Below, piece by piece: positions 21,977 to 31,054 of a stretch of 64,000 nt of DNA. A model generated the notes under the pieces. It saw only the letters and a program-made list of their open reading frames with translations, ran no database searches and had not been told where the DNA came from. The position numbers and the translations under genes were made by a program. The stretch is from Pseudoalteromonas sp. EB27 (GTDB lineage: Bacteria > Pseudomonadota > Gammaproteobacteria > Enterobacterales > Alteromonadaceae), in NCBI RefSeq assembly GCF_001974875.1, contig NZ_MTQD01000001.1:124001-188000 (forward strand), in the 5' to 3' direction. Within the stretch, counting starts at the first letter, position 1. Every line of letters starts with the position of its first letter.

Positions 21977-22435
21977 TTAGTAGTACGTTACTTTTTTAAC
22001 TTCGCGTGGTTTTACTTCACCTATGTATAAATCGTGCACACGCTTCATGTTGAGCTCAAGCTCGGTTACATAGGTATCATCAACAGCATACGTTTTTATA
22101 ATTTGCGCACCTTTAATGAGCCCCTGCACTTTACTTTCTAAGTAATCGTCTTGAGCAATTGAACCTTCCACCGTTGTTCCTGCGGTAATTTTTTGCCCGT
22201 ATACTTGTTCAGTAAGCTCGCGGTAAGCCTCAAGCTTAGAAGCTTTAATTGCCATAAGTTGCTTTTGCGACGCGTTAGCGCCTTTTTGTAAGCTAATAGG
22301 TGCATACCCTATCGCTTTTAAAACTGGGTAATTATTTGGCTCTACATATTTATATTCAACATGCTTATCAAAAACGCTGCTACAACCACCTAAGGTTAAA
22401 CACCCAAGTGTAATAAGTAATGAAATCGCTCGCAT
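21977..22435 (-). CDS. flgP: Flagellar outer membrane lipoprotein FlgP (LPP20 family)
   Basis: This is a probable H-ring lipoprotein of a sheathed or polar flagellum. From the chosen ATG at 22435 the protein is 152 residues, beginning MRAISLLITLGCLTLGGCSS with lipobox LGGC. A frame extends 25 codons upstream but would bury the signal peptide and run through the sigma-54 promoter. The body is LPP20/FlgP-like (AIKASKLEAYRELTEQVYGQKI, GTTVEGSIAQDDYLES). It is divergent from flgT. AAGGG lies just upstream of the start. Confidence 0.88.
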   Translation of the reverse strand: MRAISLLITLGCLTLGGCSSVFDKHVEYKYVEPNNYPVLKAIGYAPISLQKGANASQKQLMAIKASKLEAYRELTEQVYGQKITAGTTVEGSIAQDDYLESKVQGLIKGAQIIKTYAVDDTYVTELELNMKRVHDLYIGEVKPREVKKVTYY

Positions 22436-22471
22436 AGCATCTAGCCCTTGTATAGTAATTAGCAGTACATA

Positions 22472-22487
22472 TGCACGTTTAATGCCA
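22472..22487 (-). promoter_or_regulatory. Sigma-54 promoter of flgP
   Basis: On the minus strand the sequence TGGCATTAAACGTGCA has the invariant GG and GC of the -24/-12 elements at the correct 10 nt separation (consensus TGGCACG-N4-TTGCW, one of the two -12 T missing). It lies about 37 nt upstream of the flgP start. Confidence 0.7.
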
Positions 22488-22510
22488 TTTATAGTATTAC
22501 CAAATAACAT

Positions 22511-22565: not shown

Positions 22566-23759
22566 ATGAAGTCGTTTTTATCATTGGCATTTGCAGGGTT
22601 AAGTGCAACGGCATTATTAACGTTCTCCCCTTTTACTAAAGCGCAGTGGTATGAATCAACGGGCCATGCGAACGTTCAAAATGGTGATACGAGCGCTGCC
22701 AAATCTGCCGCTATAAAAGATGCGATTACACAAGCGTTAGTGTTCTCTGGCGCACGGGTTAGCTCGGTGCAAACCTTGGTAGATGGCGTGTTAATGCAAG
22801 ATCAGCTAAAAATTAGCAGCCACGGCGAAATTCAAAAAATTGAACTGGTCAGCGAAAATAAATACGACAATAAATTTACTATTACATTACGACTCGATAT
22901 TTTTTCTCAAACAGAGCAATGCCCACAAAATAGCTTTAATAAGTTTGTGGCCGTTACACAAAGCCAACTTGTTCATCGTGAACACGCTAAAATGGGTCAA
23001 ATATTTGACGTAAGTAAAGCGATTAGCAAAAATATTTTTACCTCACTGCAAAAATCAAAAATGAGCGCAGTGCCTATTGCTTACTATAATAATGCAATAA
23101 GCGTTGATAAATACTTTTCGCAGCAGCACGACTATTCAAACGCTCAATTAGAAGAAATATCTTCGCGCAGTAACGCTCAATATGTATTGCTTAGCCAAAT
23201 AACCAGCCTTTCGACTAGCGACAAACTCAATAACGATTATGCATTTTGGCAGGACGAGGCGTATGAGCGCAGTTACAACATTGAGTTTGCACTATTTGAT
23301 GGCACTACCTATGAGCAGCTTTGGCAAAATAGTTACCATACTCAAGCAATTTGGCCATTTGAAAAAACAACCATAGTGGATGTTAATAGTGATAGGTTTT
23401 GGCAATCGCCTTATGGGCAAAGCATAACCGATATCAACCAATCAGTGAGTTATGATATTCAAGCAGCCATGGCATGCCTACCTACACAAGGTAAAATAAT
23501 GCATATGGAAAATAGCAAAATCGTTATTAACTTGGGTAAAGCTCATGGGTTAAAAAAAGGCCAAATGCTAGGCATTGCGCACCATAACTATTTAACCGAC
23601 GCGGCAGGTAATGTTATGCCGCACACCATCACCACGCTTAATAAAATTCGCGTAGAGCAGCTTTATCAGCAAACCGCAGTAGCAGTCAGTATTGACAGTA
23701 AACCACTACCTGGCGTGCAAATTAACGATGTAGTAGAAATAATCAGCCAAGATCTTTAG
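22566..23759 (+). CDS. flgT: Flagellar H-ring protein FlgT
   Basis: This is a periplasmic protein that builds the H ring around the LP ring of Na+-driven or polar flagella. The 397-residue protein has a signal peptide ending FTKAQ, an N-terminal domain of the FlgT type (WYESTGHANVQNGD, AIKDAITQALVFSGA), a middle domain (residues about 115-290) and a C-terminal domain (KIVINLGKAHGLKKGQMLGI), matching the three-domain layout of Vibrio FlgT. GGAG sits 7 nt before the ATG. It is divergent from flgP, with back-to-back sigma-54 promoters between. Its 3' end overlaps convergent oxyR by 4 nt. Confidence 0.9.
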   Translation: MKSFLSLAFAGLSATALLTFSPFTKAQWYESTGHANVQNGDTSAAKSAAIKDAITQALVFSGARVSSVQTLVDGVLMQDQLKISSHGEIQKIELVSENKYDNKFTITLRLDIFSQTEQCPQNSFNKFVAVTQSQLVHREHAKMGQIFDVSKAISKNIFTSLQKSKMSAVPIAYYNNAISVDKYFSQQHDYSNAQLEEISSRSNAQYVLLSQITSLSTSDKLNNDYAFWQDEAYERSYNIEFALFDGTTYEQLWQNSYHTQAIWPFEKTTIVDVNSDRFWQSPYGQSITDINQSVSYDIQAAMACLPTQGKIMHMENSKIVINLGKAHGLKKGQMLGIAHHNYLTDAAGNVMPHTITTLNKIRVEQLYQQTAVAVSIDSKPLPGVQINDVVEIISQDL

Positions 23760-24655
23760 AGTTTTTTACTCAATTTAGCTTTTAAATTAGGGTGAGCCGA
23801 TAACCACTCGCCCAATTGTTCTACACCCGATAAATGCGGATAATGCTTTCTGCATGCAAACACCACATTACGCTGCTGATTAGGGAATATAGGCAAGTAA
23901 TCGATCCCTACACGGTCGGTACATGCTAACTTTGGTACAAATGTAATACCGTCATCCATAGCCACTAACGCTAATAATGTTTCTAAACTATTACCTTTAT
24001 ACTGGTTAGATACATCGACCCCTGCGGAAAAACAAAACTTTTGGGCTTGATCTTTAAAGCAATGACCATCACTTAACATTAATAGGCTGCATCCTTGAAG
24101 ATCGCTCAGCGCTACTTTTTTATGCTTAGAAAGCGCGTTATCGTGTGATACCGCCACTAAAAAATCTTCTTTGTATAAAGCAACCGTATGGTAATTAATA
24201 AGCTCTGGCACATCAGCTAGAATAGCAAAGTCGAGTTCACCCTTGTTTAAAGCTTCTAAAATTGTTGCTGTTTGCATCTCAATAAACGAAAACTGGCTAT
24301 CAATAAATGCCGCTTTCATTGATGTTAATAACGCAGGCAACAAGTAAGGCGCAATGGTAGGGATAATACCAATAGTTAATTTACCTTGTAGAGGCTCGTT
24401 AGAAGTAGCAGCAAGTTCTTTGAGTATTTGCGTTTGTTCTAAAATAATTTCTATTTGCGTCAACAAACGTTCACCTTTTGCTGTTAAGGTGACTTGCTTG
24501 GTTGAGCGATCAAACAAAGTAACGCCAAGCTCATTTTCGAGTTTTTTTACTTGACCACTTAATGTAGGCTGGCTAACAAAACATGCATCGGCAGCTTTGC
24601 GAAAATGCTTATATTGCGCTATTGCTTTTACATATTCAAAATCTTTTAAGTTCAT
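23756..24655 (-). CDS. oxyR: Hydrogen peroxide sensor-regulator OxyR
   Basis: This is a LysR-family transcription factor that activates peroxide defence genes. The N-terminal winged helix-turn-helix (FRKAADACFVSQPTLSGQVK) and effector domain total 299 residues. The redox cysteines are at exactly the E. coli positions, Cys199 and Cys208, in the signature LSDGHCFKDQ...FCF. It is divergent from the peroxiredoxin-glutaredoxin gene, with an OxyR-type operator between them, so it probably regulates that gene and itself. Confidence 0.95.
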   Translation of the reverse strand: MNLKDFEYVKAIAQYKHFRKAADACFVSQPTLSGQVKKLENELGVTLFDRSTKQVTLTAKGERLLTQIEIILEQTQILKELAATSNEPLQGKLTIGIIPTIAPYLLPALLTSMKAAFIDSQFSFIEMQTATILEALNKGELDFAILADVPELINYHTVALYKEDFLVAVSHDNALSKHKKVALSDLQGCSLLMLSDGHCFKDQAQKFCFSAGVDVSNQYKGNSLETLLALVAMDDGITFVPKLACTDRVGIDYLPIFPNQQRNVVFACRKHYPHLSGVEQLGEWLSAHPNLKAKLSKKL

Positions 24656-24670
24656 ATTCAGCTCTACGTG

Positions 24671-24707
24671 ATAGTTTATAACTATCAGTTTAATACAAAC
24701 AAACGAT
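24671..24707 (+). promoter_or_regulatory. OxyR operator
   Basis: ATAGTTTATAACTAT (24671-24685) matches the OxyR half-site ATAG-N-T-NNN-A-N-CTAT perfectly. After the expected 7 nt, a degenerate second half-site ATACAAACAAACGAT follows (24693-24707). It abuts the -35 box of the peroxiredoxin promoter, the position for activation. Confidence 0.8.
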
Positions 24708-24736
24708 TGGAACTATATTTAATTATTCACCATAAT
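24707..24736 (+). promoter_or_regulatory. Promoter of peroxiredoxin-glutaredoxin gene
   Basis: TTGGAA (24707-24712) and CATAAT (24731-24736) are separated by 18 nt and lie directly after the OxyR operator, about 30 nt before the ATG at 24768. The weak spacing and -35 fit an activator-dependent promoter. Confidence 0.55.
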
Positions 24737-24767
24737 GGCTATCAACAAATCAAGAGGAACAAAAACT

Positions 24768-25496
24768 ATGTTAAACAATATCGAAGGTCAAACAATCCCA
24801 AGTGTTACATTTGCAACTCGCGAAAATAATGATTGGAAATCAGTAACAACAGATGACATTTTTAAAGGTAAAACTGTTGTAGTGTTTTCACTACCAGGTG
24901 CATTCACACCGACATGTTCATCAACTCACTTACCACGTTATAACGAATTAGCAGGCGTACTTAAGCAAAACGGCGTTGACGAAATTGTATGTTTATCAGT
25001 AAACGATACCTTTGTAATGAACGCATGGGCTGAGCATCAAGAAGCGCAAAACATTACTTTATTACCAGACGGCAACGGCGAATTTACTGACGGCATGGGC
25101 ATGTTAGTAGACAAAAACGACCTAGGCTTTGGTAAGCGCAGCTGGAGATACTCTATGCTTGTTAAAGATGGCGTGATTGACAAAATGTTCATCGAACCAG
25201 ATTTACCAGGTGACCCGTTTGAAGTATCTGACGCAGACACAATGCTTGATTACATCAACCCTAAGCAAGCTAAACCAGAACCAGTAAGCATCTTTACTAA
25301 ACCTGGCTGTCCTTTCTGTAAAAAAGCGAAAGAGCTTCTTGCAGAAAAAGGCTTCGCATATGAAGAAATTGTTATGGGTGCAGGCGCATCACTAACAAGC
25401 CTAAAAGCTGTATCTGGTCGTGAAACTGTTCCACAAATATTCATTGGTGGTAAACACATCGGTGGTTCAGACGACTTAGAAAAATACTTTGCTTAA
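24768..25496 (+). CDS. Peroxiredoxin-glutaredoxin hybrid (Prx5 type)
   Basis: This is a peroxidase that reduces H2O2 and organic peroxides with electrons from glutathione through its own glutaredoxin domain. Residues 1-160 form a Prx5 domain with peroxidatic Cys50 in PGAFTPTCS. Residues about 172-242 form a glutaredoxin domain with the active site Cys181-Pro-Phe-Cys184, the TVPQIF cis-Pro strand and GGSDDL. I chose the ATG at 24768 because AGAGGA lies just upstream and the frame's earlier start adds 11 non-conserved residues. The 242-residue length is typical of the family. It lies under an OxyR operator and upstream of a flavoenzyme gene that may share its transcript. Confidence 0.94.
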   Translation: MLNNIEGQTIPSVTFATRENNDWKSVTTDDIFKGKTVVVFSLPGAFTPTCSSTHLPRYNELAGVLKQNGVDEIVCLSVNDTFVMNAWAEHQEAQNITLLPDGNGEFTDGMGMLVDKNDLGFGKRSWRYSMLVKDGVIDKMFIEPDLPGDPFEVSDADTMLDYINPKQAKPEPVSIFTKPGCPFCKKAKELLAEKGFAYEEIVMGAGASLTSLKAVSGRETVPQIFIGGKHIGGSDDLEKYFA

Positions 25497-25534
25497 TTAA
25501 TAAGTAAATTAAATGCCTAACGTAAGTAGGTAAA

Positions 25535-25560
25535 AAATAGGGGCTTTTATGCCCCTATTT
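25535..25560 (+). terminator. Hairpin terminator or attenuator after peroxiredoxin gene
   Basis: AAATAGGGGC and GCCCCTATTT form a perfect 10 bp stem with a 6 nt loop. It sits only about 18 nt before the flavoenzyme start, so it may partly uncouple the two genes rather than end transcription fully. Confidence 0.65.
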
Positions 25561-25578
25561 ATTAGAGGAAAAAATACT

Positions 25579-27027
25579 ATGAAAGAATTGCAAACCGATG
25601 TTGTTGTTATAGGCGCAGGCACTGCTGGTTTAAGTGCTTATCGTAATGCTAAACAGTTCACACAGAATGTATTAATGATCGAATCAGGCCCATACGGCAC
25701 CACATGTGCACGTGTTGGTTGTATGCCAAGCAAGTTATTGATTGCAGCCGCCGAAGCCGCACACGCAATTGAAATGGCACCTGCATTTGGTGTTCATAGC
25801 TCAAAGCCAGTTATTGATGGCAAAGCAGTTATGGCACGCGTTAAAAGTGAACGAGATCGTTTTGCAGGATTCGTAGTAGAAGCCGTAGATGAATTACCAG
25901 AGGGTGATAAAATTCGTGGTTACGCTAAATTTTTAGACACAAACCGCGTACAAATAGACGACCACACAATTATTACAGCAAAACGCTTTGTAATTGCAAC
26001 CGGCTCACGCCCTTCATACCCCGGCGTATTTAATAACTTTGGCGACAAACTTATTATAAACGACGACGTATTTGATTGGGATGACCTACCAGAATCAGTC
26101 GCTGTATTTGGCCCTGGTGTAATAGGCCTTGAAATTGGCCAAGCACTTAGCCGACTAGGCGTAAATGTAAAACTATTTGGTGTAGGCGGCGCAATTGGCC
26201 CACTTACAGACCCTGTAGTAAAAGACTATGCGAATACTGTTTTTGCTGAAGAATTTTTTGTAGATACCGACTCAAACGTATCTGACATGATGCAAGTTGG
26301 CGATAAAGCACAGCTAACTTACACCGACAAACAAGGTGAAAAACACACAGAACAGTTTGACTACGTACTTGCAGCCACAGGCCGAGTACCAAACGTAGAT
26401 AAACTAGGCCTTGAAAACACCGGCATTGAACTTGATGAACGCGGCGTACCGCACGCAGACACACACACAATGCAATGTGGTGAGTCAAACATATTTATAG
26501 CAGGCGATGCGAGTAACATGCTCCCATTGTTACACGAGGCATCTGACCAAGGTGCTATTGCAGGTCAAAATGCAGGGCGCTTCCCAGATGTACGAATAGG
26601 TCTGCGTAGAGCAAAAATTGCAGCCGTATTTAGCGACCCACAAATAGCAATGGTCGGCGAAAGCTACAAGCAAATTACCGACCGTTTAGGCCCATGCGGT
26701 TGTTTTGAAGTAGGCGAAGTCAGCTTTGAAAACCAAGGCCGAAGCAGAGTAATGCTTAAAAACAAAGGTCATATGCGTGTATATGCAGAGCAAGGTACAG
26801 GCTTATTTTTAGGTGCTGAGTTTATTGGCCCACAAGCCGAACACATTGCTCACTTACTAGCATGGGCTGTACAAAACAAAATGACCGTACCAGAAATGCT
26901 TGATATGCCATTTTACCACCCAGTAATTGAAGAAGGGTTACGCACCGCCCTTCGCGACTTAAACGCCAAACTTAAATTTGGCCCAGACATTGTAAATTCA
27001 TGTATGGAATGTGGCCCAGGCGCATAG
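25579..27027 (+). CDS. Dihydrolipoamide dehydrogenase-like flavoenzyme with C-terminal Cys pair
   Basis: This is a class I pyridine nucleotide-disulfide oxidoreductase of 482 residues. The FAD site is VVVIGAGTAGLSA (about 8-20), the redox disulfide is Cys43/Cys48 (TTCARVGCMPSK), the NAD(P) site is about residues 170-200 (VFGPGVIGLEIGQAL), the second FAD motif is IFIAGDA, and the base pair His-Glu is in HPVIEE. It is not next to 2-oxoacid dehydrogenase genes, so a role in lipoate oxidation is doubtful. The tail ends NSCMECGPGA (Cys475, Cys478), which recalls the extra C-terminal thiols of mercuric reductase and high-Mr thioredoxin reductase. Placement after the peroxiredoxin-glutaredoxin gene suggests a thiol-reductase role, which is inference. 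The start chosen has AGAGGAAAAAAT upstream. Confidence 0.85.
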   Translation: MKELQTDVVVIGAGTAGLSAYRNAKQFTQNVLMIESGPYGTTCARVGCMPSKLLIAAAEAAHAIEMAPAFGVHSSKPVIDGKAVMARVKSERDRFAGFVVEAVDELPEGDKIRGYAKFLDTNRVQIDDHTIITAKRFVIATGSRPSYPGVFNNFGDKLIINDDVFDWDDLPESVAVFGPGVIGLEIGQALSRLGVNVKLFGVGGAIGPLTDPVVKDYANTVFAEEFFVDTDSNVSDMMQVGDKAQLTYTDKQGEKHTEQFDYVLAATGRVPNVDKLGLENTGIELDERGVPHADTHTMQCGESNIFIAGDASNMLPLLHEASDQGAIAGQNAGRFPDVRIGLRRAKIAAVFSDPQIAMVGESYKQITDRLGPCGCFEVGEVSFENQGRSRVMLKNKGHMRVYAEQGTGLFLGAEFIGPQAEHIAHLLAWAVQNKMTVPEMLDMPFYHPVIEEGLRTALRDLNAKLKFGPDIVNSCMECGPGA

Positions 27028-27060
27028 CCTATTTACCACACATACAAACTTGCTAAGCAA

Positions 27061-27090
27061 AAGCCAAAACTAACGTTTTGGCTTTTTTTT
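27061..27090 (+). terminator. Rho-independent terminator
   Basis: AAGCCAAAAC and GTTTTGGCTT form a perfect 10 bp stem with a TAAC loop, followed by eight T. It ends the flavoenzyme transcript. Confidence 0.85.
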
Positions 27091-27173: not shown

Positions 27174-28106
27174 ATGCCCAATAATAAATTTAGACTAGTC
27201 ACTCGCAGCGATTTTGATGGCTTAGTTTGTGCCGTATTGCTTAAAGACTTAGACCTAATTGATGATATTTTGTTTGTTCATCCAAAAGACATGCAAGATG
27301 GAAAAATAGACATTACCGAAAACGACATTACGACCAACCTCCCCTACGTTGCAGGCTGTCACATAGCATTTGATCATCATCTTAGCGAAACCGTACGTAA
27401 CTCAAGCGACATAAAAAATCATATTATTGACCCAGAAGCCCCATCAGCAGCTCGCGTAGTTTATGACTATTATGGCGGCGCTGAAAAACTTCCAAATATT
27501 TCTGTTGAAATGATGGACGCTGTTGATAAAGGTGATGCTGCTCAGTTTTCAAAAGACGAAATATTAAACCCGACCGACTGGGTATTAATGAACTTTATTA
27601 TGGATGCGCGAACAGGCCTTGGCCGTTTTCGCGAGTTTAAAATTTCAAATTATCAATTAATGATGAAACTCATTGATGCATGTAAAGATCAGAGCATCGA
27701 AGAAATCCTACAAATGGAAGACGTAGCCGAACGTGTTGCTTTATATAACGAGCATAACGAAAAAGCCAAAGAGCAAATTTCTCAATGCGCTACCGTCCAT
27801 AAAAACTTAGTGATACTTGATTTAACCCAAGAAGAAACAATTTACGCCACAAACCGATTTGTTATTTATGCCATGTACCCCGACTGCAATATCTCGATTC
27901 ATAAAATGTGGGGCCTTAAAAAACAAAACGTAGTGTATGCCATAGGTAAATCAATCACTAACCGCAGTTCAAACACCAATGTTGGCGAACTGTGCCTTAA
28001 ATACGGCGGTGGTGGTCATTTAAATGCAGGCACTTGCCAAGTAGAAACAAGTAAAGCAGAAGCTGTACTTAGTGAATTAATTGATACTATTACAAGTGAT
28101 GGTTAA
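27174..28106 (+). CDS. DHH-family phosphoesterase
   Basis: This is a predicted metal-dependent phosphoesterase of the DHH/DHHA1 superfamily (310 residues). The N-terminal motif TRSDFDG, the FDHHLSE motif (about residue 66) and a later Asp (IDPEAPSAARVVYDY) form the metal site. The C-terminal DHHA1 motif is YGGGGHLNAGTC. Relatives include nanoRNases, c-di-AMP phosphodiesterases and exopolyphosphatase-like proteins, and the substrate cannot be told from sequence. It stands alone, with terminators on both sides. Confidence 0.85.
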   Translation: MPNNKFRLVTRSDFDGLVCAVLLKDLDLIDDILFVHPKDMQDGKIDITENDITTNLPYVAGCHIAFDHHLSETVRNSSDIKNHIIDPEAPSAARVVYDYYGGAEKLPNISVEMMDAVDKGDAAQFSKDEILNPTDWVLMNFIMDARTGLGRFREFKISNYQLMMKLIDACKDQSIEEILQMEDVAERVALYNEHNEKAKEQISQCATVHKNLVILDLTQEETIYATNRFVIYAMYPDCNISIHKMWGLKKQNVVYAIGKSITNRSSNTNVGELCLKYGGGGHLNAGTCQVETSKAEAVLSELIDTITSDG

Positions 28107-29044: not shown

Positions 29045-29713
29045 TTAATTGCTTGATAAGTATATATCTTCTTTATTTAGTACATAAATTGGGATTAGTT
29101 TTCGACTACTCGCGACGATTTTTTTTGTATGCGCGTTAATTACACGTGTATTTACAACAACAGCATCATTGCGATAAATTAATGTACCCGCTAATACATG
29201 GCTCGCCATTTGCTCTTCGCTAAGCTTTTCAATATCGCGCGAAAAAGCAAAATCACCACGGCTATTTACATCTATAGTTTGGGTTGTTTTAAAATCAACC
29301 ACGCCATAACCAAACTTTTGTAATTGATGAATTAACGTTTCAGAAATTTGATTACCCAATTGATTGCTTTTAGTAAGCGATGAATCAAGATCGACCAAGG
29401 TAGTAACGGCAATATTAATATTGGTGTCGGTATCACTTTCAAATTCAAGCGTATCAACCAAATCAAGTGCCATTTGCTCTACATAGTTAGCAAGTGTTTT
29501 ATGGTGCTGAAGTGGTGTAAATTGATTACCGTTAACATCATCTTGAGTTGATTTTTGCTCGGCTATTTTAAGCATGCTTGCTAGGTCATAATTTACTTGT
29601 GTGGTTGAAGGCGTATTAATTTCAGCACTTTCACTATTTTGAGTAAAGGCACAACCTGCTAAGTTAGCTAAAGCAAAAAAAACGATAAAGCGGTTAAATA
29701 ATTTACTATACAT
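29045..29713 (-). CDS. FlgO-family flagellar lipoprotein, paralog 3
   Basis: This is the third of three tandem FlgO-domain lipoproteins. It has a signal peptide with lipobox LAGC (Cys21) and a FlgO domain from about residue 95 (VTTLVDLDSSLTKSNQLGNQ, VDFKTTQTIDVNSRGDFAFSRD, AGTLIYRNDAVVVNTRVINA). The 222 residues include a long N-terminal spacer. FlgO helps anchor the H ring in the outer membrane in Vibrio. The start is 7 nt from the previous gene's stop, so it is the last gene of an operon with the two paralogs upstream. Confidence 0.85.
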   Translation of the reverse strand: MYSKLFNRFIVFFALANLAGCAFTQNSESAEINTPSTTQVNYDLASMLKIAEQKSTQDDVNGNQFTPLQHHKTLANYVEQMALDLVDTLEFESDTDTNINIAVTTLVDLDSSLTKSNQLGNQISETLIHQLQKFGYGVVDFKTTQTIDVNSRGDFAFSRDIEKLSEEQMASHVLAGTLIYRNDAVVVNTRVINAHTKKIVASSRKLIPIYVLNKEDIYLSSN

Positions 29714-29720
29714 AATTATC

Positions 29721-30413
29721 TCACTTGCTTGCTTGTTTTAACATTATGCCATCAGTGCGATAACTACTATTAAGCGCATCAACAACCGACTGTGGAATAA
29801 ACCCTTGTGCAGAACCTACTACGGCCTTACTTTCTAGCCCAACAATACGTGCATTAACAAGTACACCACCTTGATGGTTTACAAGCGTACCGGCAAGTAC
29901 ATATTTAAAGTTTTGATCTTGATTTAGCTCTAAATAGTCGCGACTAAATACAAAGTCGCCTGTTGAGGTAACACGCATATAATCAGTTGTTTTAAAATCA
30001 ATAACGGGTACACCAAAGCTGTGTAATTCATGCATGAAGCTTTCTGCAATTTGGTTCCCTAGTAAGCTACCATCGTTGTAGTCTTCATCTAAAAAAACAA
30101 AACTCGAAACAGCTAACGGTGTTTGTTCACTTACGTACTGTAAGTTTTCAACCATGTCTTGCATTATGCCGCGCACATAATGGTTAATATTTTTGCGCAT
30201 TGGCGGTGTTGCTTTTGTGTAGTTATCCTGTGGAGCCATTCCTGACTGAAATAAGTTATCGTCAGAAACAGGCGCTGCAACGTCGCGTTGGTTACTCACC
30301 AGTTGATTGCTTTGCTCACTTTGTGGTGTTGTGGTGTCTGTATTCATTGTGCCTAGTATTTGAGAGCAACCAAAGCCCAGTGGTAAGCATAATGTAATTA
30401 ATAGGTTTTTCAT
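29721..30413 (-). CDS. FlgO-family flagellar lipoprotein, paralog 2
   Basis: This is the middle gene of the flgO trio. I chose the ATG at 30413, preceded by GGAGCACAAA, which gives a 230-residue protein starting MKNLLITLCLPLGFGCSQ with lipobox Cys16. An in-frame start 21 codons earlier would bury the signal peptide. The FlgO domain shows SSFVFLDEDYNDGSLLGNQ, VIDFKTTDYMRVTSTGDF, SRDYLEL and AGTLVNHQGGVLVNARIV. A Ser/Gln/Thr-rich spacer separates lipid anchor and domain. Confidence 0.85.
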   Translation of the reverse strand: MKNLLITLCLPLGFGCSQILGTMNTDTTTPQSEQSNQLVSNQRDVAAPVSDDNLFQSGMAPQDNYTKATPPMRKNINHYVRGIMQDMVENLQYVSEQTPLAVSSFVFLDEDYNDGSLLGNQIAESFMHELHSFGVPVIDFKTTDYMRVTSTGDFVFSRDYLELNQDQNFKYVLAGTLVNHQGGVLVNARIVGLESKAVVGSAQGFIPQSVVDALNSSYRTDGIMLKQASK

Positions 30414-30426
30414 TTTGTGCTCCAAA

Positions 30427-31020
30427 TTAGTATTCGCTTCGGTATAAAAGTCCGTCACGCTGCTGAATTTTCTCATTGCCCCACATTACATTAATTGGGA
30501 TCTCGGTACTTCCCGCAGAGAGCACCTGTTTATTTTCTATATTCACAAGCCGTGCATTAACTATGTATGCATGCTGCTGGCGAGTCACTGTTCCTGTGAT
30601 AACTAAGTCAATATTTTGGCGATTACGTAATTTACTTAAATCGCGACTTAAAATACTGTCTGAGTTTTCTGATAAAGAGAGGTTATTCCCAAGTCTGTAT
30701 TCAACGGTGTGATAACCCAGTTGAGTAAATTGTGTAAGTAGACTTTCTTGGATCTGCTGACTTAAGCCTGAGGCCTGCCCTGTCACCAATTTTGTATCTA
30801 GTGCATCTGCATAAAAGAAGCTACTAACGCCAACACGTGCATTAGCATTTAATGCTCCGTTTAGGTGGTTAAGTTGCGACGTTAAATTAACTACATAGTC
30901 GTTAACTGTAAAAGGAGCCATGGCCGCTTTAGGTGCATCTGTAGGCACACTTGGTTCTGGCGGCGGCACCAAGTTACAAGCAGCTAAATTTAAAAATAAT
31001 AAAGGCAGTAAAAGGCGCAT
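30427..31020 (-). CDS. FlgO-family flagellar lipoprotein, paralog 1
   Basis: This is the first gene of the flgO trio. The ATG at 31020 has AGAGG about 10 nt upstream and gives MRLLLPLLFLNLAAC with lipobox LAAC; a TTG six codons upstream is less likely. The FlgO domain includes VGVSSFFYADALDTKLVTGQ, QQIQESLLTQFTQLGYHTVE, LSRDLSKLRNRQNIDLVITG and YIVNARLVNIENKQVLSAG. A sigma-54 promoter lies 35-50 nt upstream. Which of the three is the true FlgO orthologue cannot be decided from this window. Confidence 0.87.
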   Translation of the reverse strand: MRLLLPLLFLNLAACNLVPPPEPSVPTDAPKAAMAPFTVNDYVVNLTSQLNHLNGALNANARVGVSSFFYADALDTKLVTGQASGLSQQIQESLLTQFTQLGYHTVEYRLGNNLSLSENSDSILSRDLSKLRNRQNIDLVITGTVTRQQHAYIVNARLVNIENKQVLSAGSTEIPINVMWGNEKIQQRDGLLYRSEY

Positions 31021-31054
31021 AATTGCCATCCTCTTCAAAACATACTAAGGACAA

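Follow-up and report, generated by a model that had tools for sequence, protein, structure and literature searches.

The closest described relatives of the system considered here are those of Bordetella and Neisseria, in which the partnership of a flavoprotein disulfide reductase with a peroxiredoxin-glutaredoxin (Prx-Grx) hybrid is already known under other names. In Bordetella pertussis the genes form the operon copZ-prxgrx-gorB; recombinant GorB is reported to reduce glutathione disulfide (GSSG) with NADPH at a kcat/Km of about 3.2e5 M-1 s-1 and to consume NADPH faster with H2O2 once PrxGrx is added, and OxyR to bind the region upstream of prxgrx (PMC7794356). The same paper states that 16 of 86 beta-proteobacterial genera carry prxgrx and 11 of these prxgrx-gorB, the complete operon being confined to Bordetella and Achromobacter, and that oxyR adjoins prxgrx homologues in 19.4% of cases (PMC7794356). 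For Neisseria, NGO0926/NGO0925 and NMB0946/NMB0947, which bear consecutive tags, are given as peroxiredoxin and gor (PMC3135505), and the OxyR regulon as prx, gor and kat (PMC2881104, PMC6172773); papers differ in naming the gene whose tag adjoins that of prx, one using gor and others lpdA2 or dihydrolipoamide dehydrogenase. We analysed the corresponding gene pair of Pseudoalteromonas sp. EB27 in a stretch of 64,000 nucleotides (contig NZ_MTQD01000001.1, positions 124,001 to 188,000; hereafter the window), in which the reductase following the hybrid ends in a Cys-x-x-Cys (CxxC) tail.

Glutathione amide reductase of Chromatium gracile, a flavoprotein disulfide reductase, is also said to be paired with a Prx-Grx hybrid, and we know of no CxxC tail in that enzyme. 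PDB 2r9z, used for the comparison with glutathione amide reductase, matches the window enzyme only at 3.5e-35, so the Chromatium enzyme belongs to another reductase lineage. Mercuric reductase (MerA) and high-Mr thioredoxin reductase resemble the window enzyme in that their C-terminal tail bears a second thiol pair, about as far from the active site. In these two the pair is an adjacent CC (from PDB titles) or CU, whereas it is CxxC in the window enzyme, which scores below the MerA cut-off (TIGR02053, 280.3 against 454.45 bits). Among the matches listed from the open-access literature, we recognised no study treating the CxxC tail of this family. New within the literature searched are the conserved CxxC arm, its apparently old and patchy distribution, the evidence from split genes and the probable misannotation of the family.

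We consider it likely that the window enzyme is a GorB-type glutathione reductase, induced by OxyR together with the Prx-Grx peroxidase and bearing a tail that would form a second dithiol. On the side of the window, the basis is homology, synteny, the operator and co-occurrence; the NAD(P)H-GSSG reaction was measured for the tailless syntenic Bordetella enzyme and would, by analogy, also be that of the window enzyme. The locus comprises the following features:

23756-24655, minus strand: oxyR, LysR-type regulator of 299 amino acids, divergent from the hybrid gene (open reading frame and Pfam LysR)
24671-24707, no strand: predicted OxyR operator, 17/20 consensus positions with one perfect half-site
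24768-25496, plus strand: Prx-Grx hybrid (P0002) of 242 amino acids (Pfam Redoxin and Glutaredoxin)
25535-25560, plus strand: G+C-rich intergenic hairpin, possible partial terminator or attenuator (fold and comparison of congeners)
25579-27027, plus strand: GorB-type flavoprotein disulfide reductase of 482 amino acids (NF004939; Pfam Pyr_redox_2 and dimerisation domain)
25705-25722, plus strand: active-site disulfide C43-A-R-V-G-C48 of the reductase (invariant Cys in the alignment)
27001-27012, plus strand: C-terminal C475-M-E-C478 tail, CxxCGPGA (translation and alignment of homologues)
27059-27086, plus strand: intrinsic-terminator-like site past the reductase gene (pattern scan; the number of such sites is not above the shuffle mean)

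The reductase is counted from the second ATG (25579), the mechanical open reading frame beginning at 25549; the numbering Cys475/Cys478 given in the preliminary description fits this reading, with C475 encoded at 27001-27003 and C478 at 27010-27012 within the C-terminus SCMECGPGA. That description had also placed the reductase behind a Prx-Grx hybrid under an OxyR operator, which the gene order and the 17/20 site confirm. The site was scored over 20 positions against a consensus taken from general knowledge; it is the only one above 14/20 within the window (next best 14/20) and contains the only perfect (10/10) half-site. In the 14 congeners, own genome included, in which oxyR adjoins the hybrid, the region upstream of the hybrid scores 16-17/20. 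The regulator scores 291.8 bits against NF008361, below the NCBIfam cut-off of 329, and possesses the spaced redox Cys pair DGHC-x8-C. As for the hybrid, its peroxidatic Cys lies in PTCSST and its Grx motif is CPFC; it matches Haemophilus influenzae HI0572 (PDB 1nm3) with 395 bits and is, like the HI0572-type Prx5-Grx hybrids, a fusion of a full-length Prx with a CPxC Grx.

In the proposed scheme, OxyR would turn on the reductase together with the peroxidase, and electrons would pass from NAD(P)H to flavin adenine dinucleotide and on to the C43-C48 disulfide, which once reduced would reduce GSSG; glutathione would in turn serve the glutaredoxin domain of the hybrid and reset the peroxidase after each H2O2. 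By analogy, C475/C478 would be a flexible second dithiol taking electrons from the active-site disulfide, probably that of the partner subunit, and would broaden the range of disulfides reduced.

The association between the reductase family and the hybrid was assessed in a phylum sample of 398 genomes and in 60 genomes of relatives (30 with the family and 30 without). In the phylum sample, the family was present in 33 genomes, a full hybrid in 32 (excluding a Prx-only match in G729) and both in 13, i.e. the hybrid occurred in 13/33 family-bearing genomes and in 19/365 others (Fisher 9e-8). Among the relatives, all 30 genomes with the family and 18 of the 30 without it had a full hybrid (Fisher 1e-4). 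The hybrid lay immediately 5' of the reductase gene in 29 of the 30; the exception is G036, where 3.3 kb and two opposite-strand genes separate it from the reductase gene. The family was also present in all nine Bordetella genomes searched, eight loci reading CopZ-like gene, hybrid and family member and the ninth being cut at a contig edge, and the same three genes were found in 3/3 Achromobacter loci. Judged by this genus-wide synteny, and not by its own sequence (BP1729), B. pertussis GorB is of the same family as the window enzyme, directly behind the hybrid and OxyR-controlled; the members in the genus differ in having no C-terminal CxxC, and the B. pertussis operon in having CueR/copper control and a copZ gene. 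Co-occurrence, adjacency and the GorB activity given in PMC7794356 agree with the earlier proposal of a dedicated reductase for the hybrid or for glutathione.

A functional link is further supported by loci in which Prx and Grx are split beside the reductase. In a Methylocystaceae metagenome-assembled genome (MAG), prx, a tailed reductase and grx are three adjacent genes (L227:3365-5708) and so represent the system before or without fusion. Separate Grx genes, sought by hidden Markov model, lie 10-63 bases upstream of the reductase at L219, L224, L230 and L233 (Neptunomonas, Photobacterium alginatilyticum, Reinekea and a Woeseiaceae MAG), and in an Emcibacteraceae MAG (L239) a separate Prx overlaps a tailless reductase on its downstream side. 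Among 67 hybrid-free loci surveyed, these split systems account for 6; in the remaining 61, of which many are distant members (about 40% identity), no such Prx or Grx neighbour lay within the flanks of 1.5-5 kb, the span to which "no hybrid nearby" refers throughout. Partial neighbours at L074 (a remnant), L227 and L233 were not counted as full hybrids. At two of the split loci (L219:2545-5443 and L224:2624-5443), where the Grx gene directly precedes a tailed reductase, a divergent AraC-like regulator (by eye) stands in place of OxyR. An apparent truncated hybrid remnant was seen beside a tailless reductase at L166:4523-4921.

By its annotation the window enzyme would be a true lipoamide dehydrogenase or a general diaphorase, which we regard as very unlikely. 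It passes NF004939 (PRK06292.1-1), an equivalog named dihydrolipoyl dehydrogenase, with 752.7 bits against a cut-off of 435, and the folds closest to it are E3 enzymes, then MerA; an assay of Vibrio splendidus DLD2, considered below, is also in favour. However, it misses TIGR01350 (lipoamide_DH, canonical E3; 261 against 408.8 bits) and is only 27% identical to the canonical-looking E3 of its own genome (L001), which itself stands beside an E2-like open reading frame (by eye). Where the second beta strand in the NAD domain ends, the NADH-type acid (E in L001) gives way to G201 in the reductase, nearly invariantly so and unlike in canonical E3, and the gene sits with peroxidase genes. C43/C48 and H447/E452 do not vary across 46 aligned rows. 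The earlier wording "lipoamide-dehydrogenase-like" is right for fold and sequence and misleading for function. The family is widespread and labelled dihydrolipoyl dehydrogenase, yet where a syntenic member has been studied, the clearest biochemical result is the reduction of glutathione; the label is probably a misannotation, and relabelling would alter the interpretation of these operons in Vibrio, Neisseria, Serratia, Pseudoalteromonas and elsewhere. Nor is the enzyme orthologous to canonical glutathione reductase (NF004776, 197.5 against a cut-off of 480 bits), which the genome encodes separately (L002; G000:C4:139270); it belongs to the lipoamide-dehydrogenase/MerA branch.

The closest solved structure is 3ic9 of Colwellia psychrerythraea (56-58% identity, TM 0.94), titled dihydrolipoamide dehydrogenase, whose alignments with three tailed queries end short of the tail; E3 enzymes, MerA and, lower, mycothione reductase rank after it. 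The AlphaFold single-chain model of the reductase has a mean predicted local distance difference test (pLDDT) of 90. The active-site stretch 41-50 is weak (pLDDT 65), which the modelling of a dimer as a single chain may explain, and residues 469-476 form a low-confidence short helix, in keeping with a mobile arm.

Several observations weigh against a GorB-type, OxyR-induced glutathione reductase with a redox-active tail. The tail is uncertain in the model, with a mean pLDDT of 55 at 471-480 and of 39 at the last two residues. The window enzyme is about 60% identical to the Bordetella enzymes, which are tailless, so that a shift in function is possible. When the genus is taken by itself, hybrid and family are not significantly associated (22/22 against 12/14 genomes; p 0.14). 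Eight of the 22 reductase-bearing congeners (L053, L055, L058 and L060-L064) have no oxyR match within 1.5 kb and an operator score of 11-15 (shuffles 13-15); OxyR linkage, as judged from these loci, is therefore clear at the window locus and not genus-wide, although all eight still keep the hybrid and a tailed reductase. Canonical glutathione reductase was found in 36/36 genus genomes searched (own included), 14 of which have no GorB-type enzyme. Bulk GSSG reduction is thus independent of the GorB-type enzyme, whose role in the genus is specialised, not housekeeping, since every genome has the other reductase and 14 manage without this one.

The last of these points is the sole assay that we found on a tailed enzyme. 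It is a crude lipoamide assay of V. splendidus DLD2, a protein of 488 residues (1467-bp open reading frame) whose primer ends encode MKQVNVDVA and DCGPGC; A340 of an NADH-lipoamide mix fell from 3.8 to 2.12, the comparison being a mix that lacked enzyme (PMC6816312). DLD2 is a tailed orthologue with matching length and ends (its length fits 488-residue rows such as L032), which differs in that the work on it concerned surface adhesion and lipoamide dehydrogenase activity. As the control described is the one lacking enzyme, not lipoamide, the result represents NADH oxidation and does not settle the substrate.

A different situation was found in Neisseriaceae. In N. polysaccharea (L173) the family member lies directly behind the hybrid, as in the prx-gor pair of the Neisseria OxyR regulon; the differences from the window are that no oxyR was found in the flanks examined and that the N. 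polysaccharea enzyme is tailless, those of N. elongata and N. dentiae being tailed. Because canonical glutathione reductase was found in none of the six Neisseriaceae genomes searched at E 1e-100 (these three species included), the GorB-type enzyme is probably their sole glutathione reductase. Natural tailed and tailless versions, present even inside this family, offer a ready comparison for what a C-terminal thiol arm adds.

The tail itself, 28 residues beyond the catalytic H447 at C475, is well conserved near the window. A CxxC followed by 3-4 terminal residues was present in 30/30 homologues among the 60 related genomes (own included). In the 36-row tree clade containing the window enzyme, whose nearest named rows are Pseudoalteromonas (genome of 4.5 Mb, G000), C was found at column 475 in 31 rows and at column 478 in 30, five rows being entirely tailless. 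Column entropy in this clade was 0.58 bits at C475 and 0.76 at C478, as against 2.3-2.7 at 469-474, 476 and 477; G481 and P480 reached 0.76 and 1.28 bits. In 22 Pseudoalteromonas both Cys codons show synonymous variation only (TGT/TGC). Judged by these patterns of substitution, the CxxC tail is under selection. The survey of homologues that had been suggested thus gave a divided answer, the tail being conserved in close orthologues and not in distant ones.

Its wider distribution was followed on a tree of 88 rows (83 ingroup), built by a quick method with the tail columns excluded and with 19 of 85 inner branches left open. The named loci are the best 80 of at least 551 against the Neisseria first row and not a random sample; the class and phylum searches contributed at most 30 loci each, from 70 and 33 genomes with matches. 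Before tree construction, 20 of the 80 named loci (near-duplicates or contig-end cuts) and 59 of the 87 in a further locus set were left out. A conserved thiol pair past the dimerisation domain, as in reductases with a C-terminal redox tail, was found in 49 of the 83 ingroup rows, including Oxalobacteraceae, Marinobacter and Halomonas types, Enterobacterales and some Neisseria. The tree implies at least 10 changes in the presence of the tail. Counts of changes are no proof; an old tail lost repeatedly nevertheless appears likelier than one gained repeatedly, because 42 of the 49 tails share C-x-[DE]-C and 35 share C-x-[DE]-C-GPG. In genus g246 (L075 and L111), which groups with Halomonadaceae, the tails have decayed to CMETGPGG and GMESGPGS, one keeping one Cys and the other none, with the hybrid still adjoining.

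If the tail dithiol fed the glutaredoxin domain of the hybrid (or thioredoxin) and bypassed glutathione, as in thioredoxin-glutathione reductase, the enzyme would be a direct reductase of the hybrid. The spacing of C43 and C475 (432 residues) is akin to that of C42 and C464 in Tn501 MerA (422; PDB titles), and four of the six split systems (L219, L224, L227 and L230) have a tailed enzyme; the other two (L233 and L239), however, are tailless. Moreover, tail and hybrid vary independently among the 83 ingroup rows: 49 have the tail and 49 a full hybrid, with 30 having both, 19 the hybrid only, 19 the tail only and 15 neither (Fisher p 0.66). Hybrid linkage changes 7 times on the tree, and six supported independent pairs, too few for a strong test, show no joint movement of the two. 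We therefore rejected the tail as a marker of the hybrid partnership, and the idea that its thiols link the enzyme to the peroxidase is not supported; the 19 tailless hybrid-linked rows include the Bordetella type of known activity, whose pair operates via GSSG. A direct reductase thus seems unlikely. A broader idea, which we entertain only tentatively, is that tailed enzymes correspond in bacteria to thioredoxin-glutathione reductase, the CxxC arm reducing GSSG as well as glutaredoxin domains or glutathionylated proteins directly, and that this arm is very old and often lost, e.g. in the Bordetella type.

CxxC is also a common metal motif, and the tail of an otherwise ordinary glutathione reductase could be a metal site (e.g. 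for Cu(I) or Zn) or a structural latch. The tailless Bordetella and Achromobacter operons carry the CxxC protein CopZ instead, which fits this idea; the parallel comes from one clade, though, and is possibly a coincidence, the window operon has no CopZ-type gene, and like tails of flavoenzymes in known families are redox active, all of which makes a metal site or latch improbable. The GorB-type reductase with a second dithiol is the reading that we retain.

Two other correlates of the tail were set aside. Canonical gor was coded in 53 rows, a partial match in G821 (393.7 bits) being taken as present and one in G828 (below the cut-off) as absent; it accompanied 30/35 tailed and 6/18 tailless enzymes (Fisher 3e-4), with only five supported independent pairs, and no association is claimed. 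The Grx motif GCPFC was found in 69/76 tailed and 10/22 tailless full hybrids, a difference that is confounded by descent and was not used. The tailed enzymes of genus g323 (L156-L158) had no peroxidase hybrid nearby (1.5-5 kb), and a Dps-like open reading frame (by eye) was present at two of the three loci.

Between hybrid and reductase, the 82-base gap folds at -22.4 kcal/mol (without shuffle control). The hairpin core AGGGG[CT]..CCCCT was found in 14/22 Pseudoalteromonas, a 15th having one mismatch to it, and the hairpin may hold expression of the reductase below that of the peroxidase. Vibrio, Photobacterium and Serratia each have other hairpins at single loci. Past the operon, 27174-28106 encodes a weak DHH/DHHA1-type protein, under Pfam cut-offs. 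Three FlgO-domain genes stand in tandem on the minus strand at 29045-31038, and on the other side of the locus lie flgT (22566-23759) and an LPP20-like gene slightly below its Pfam cut-off (21977-22510).

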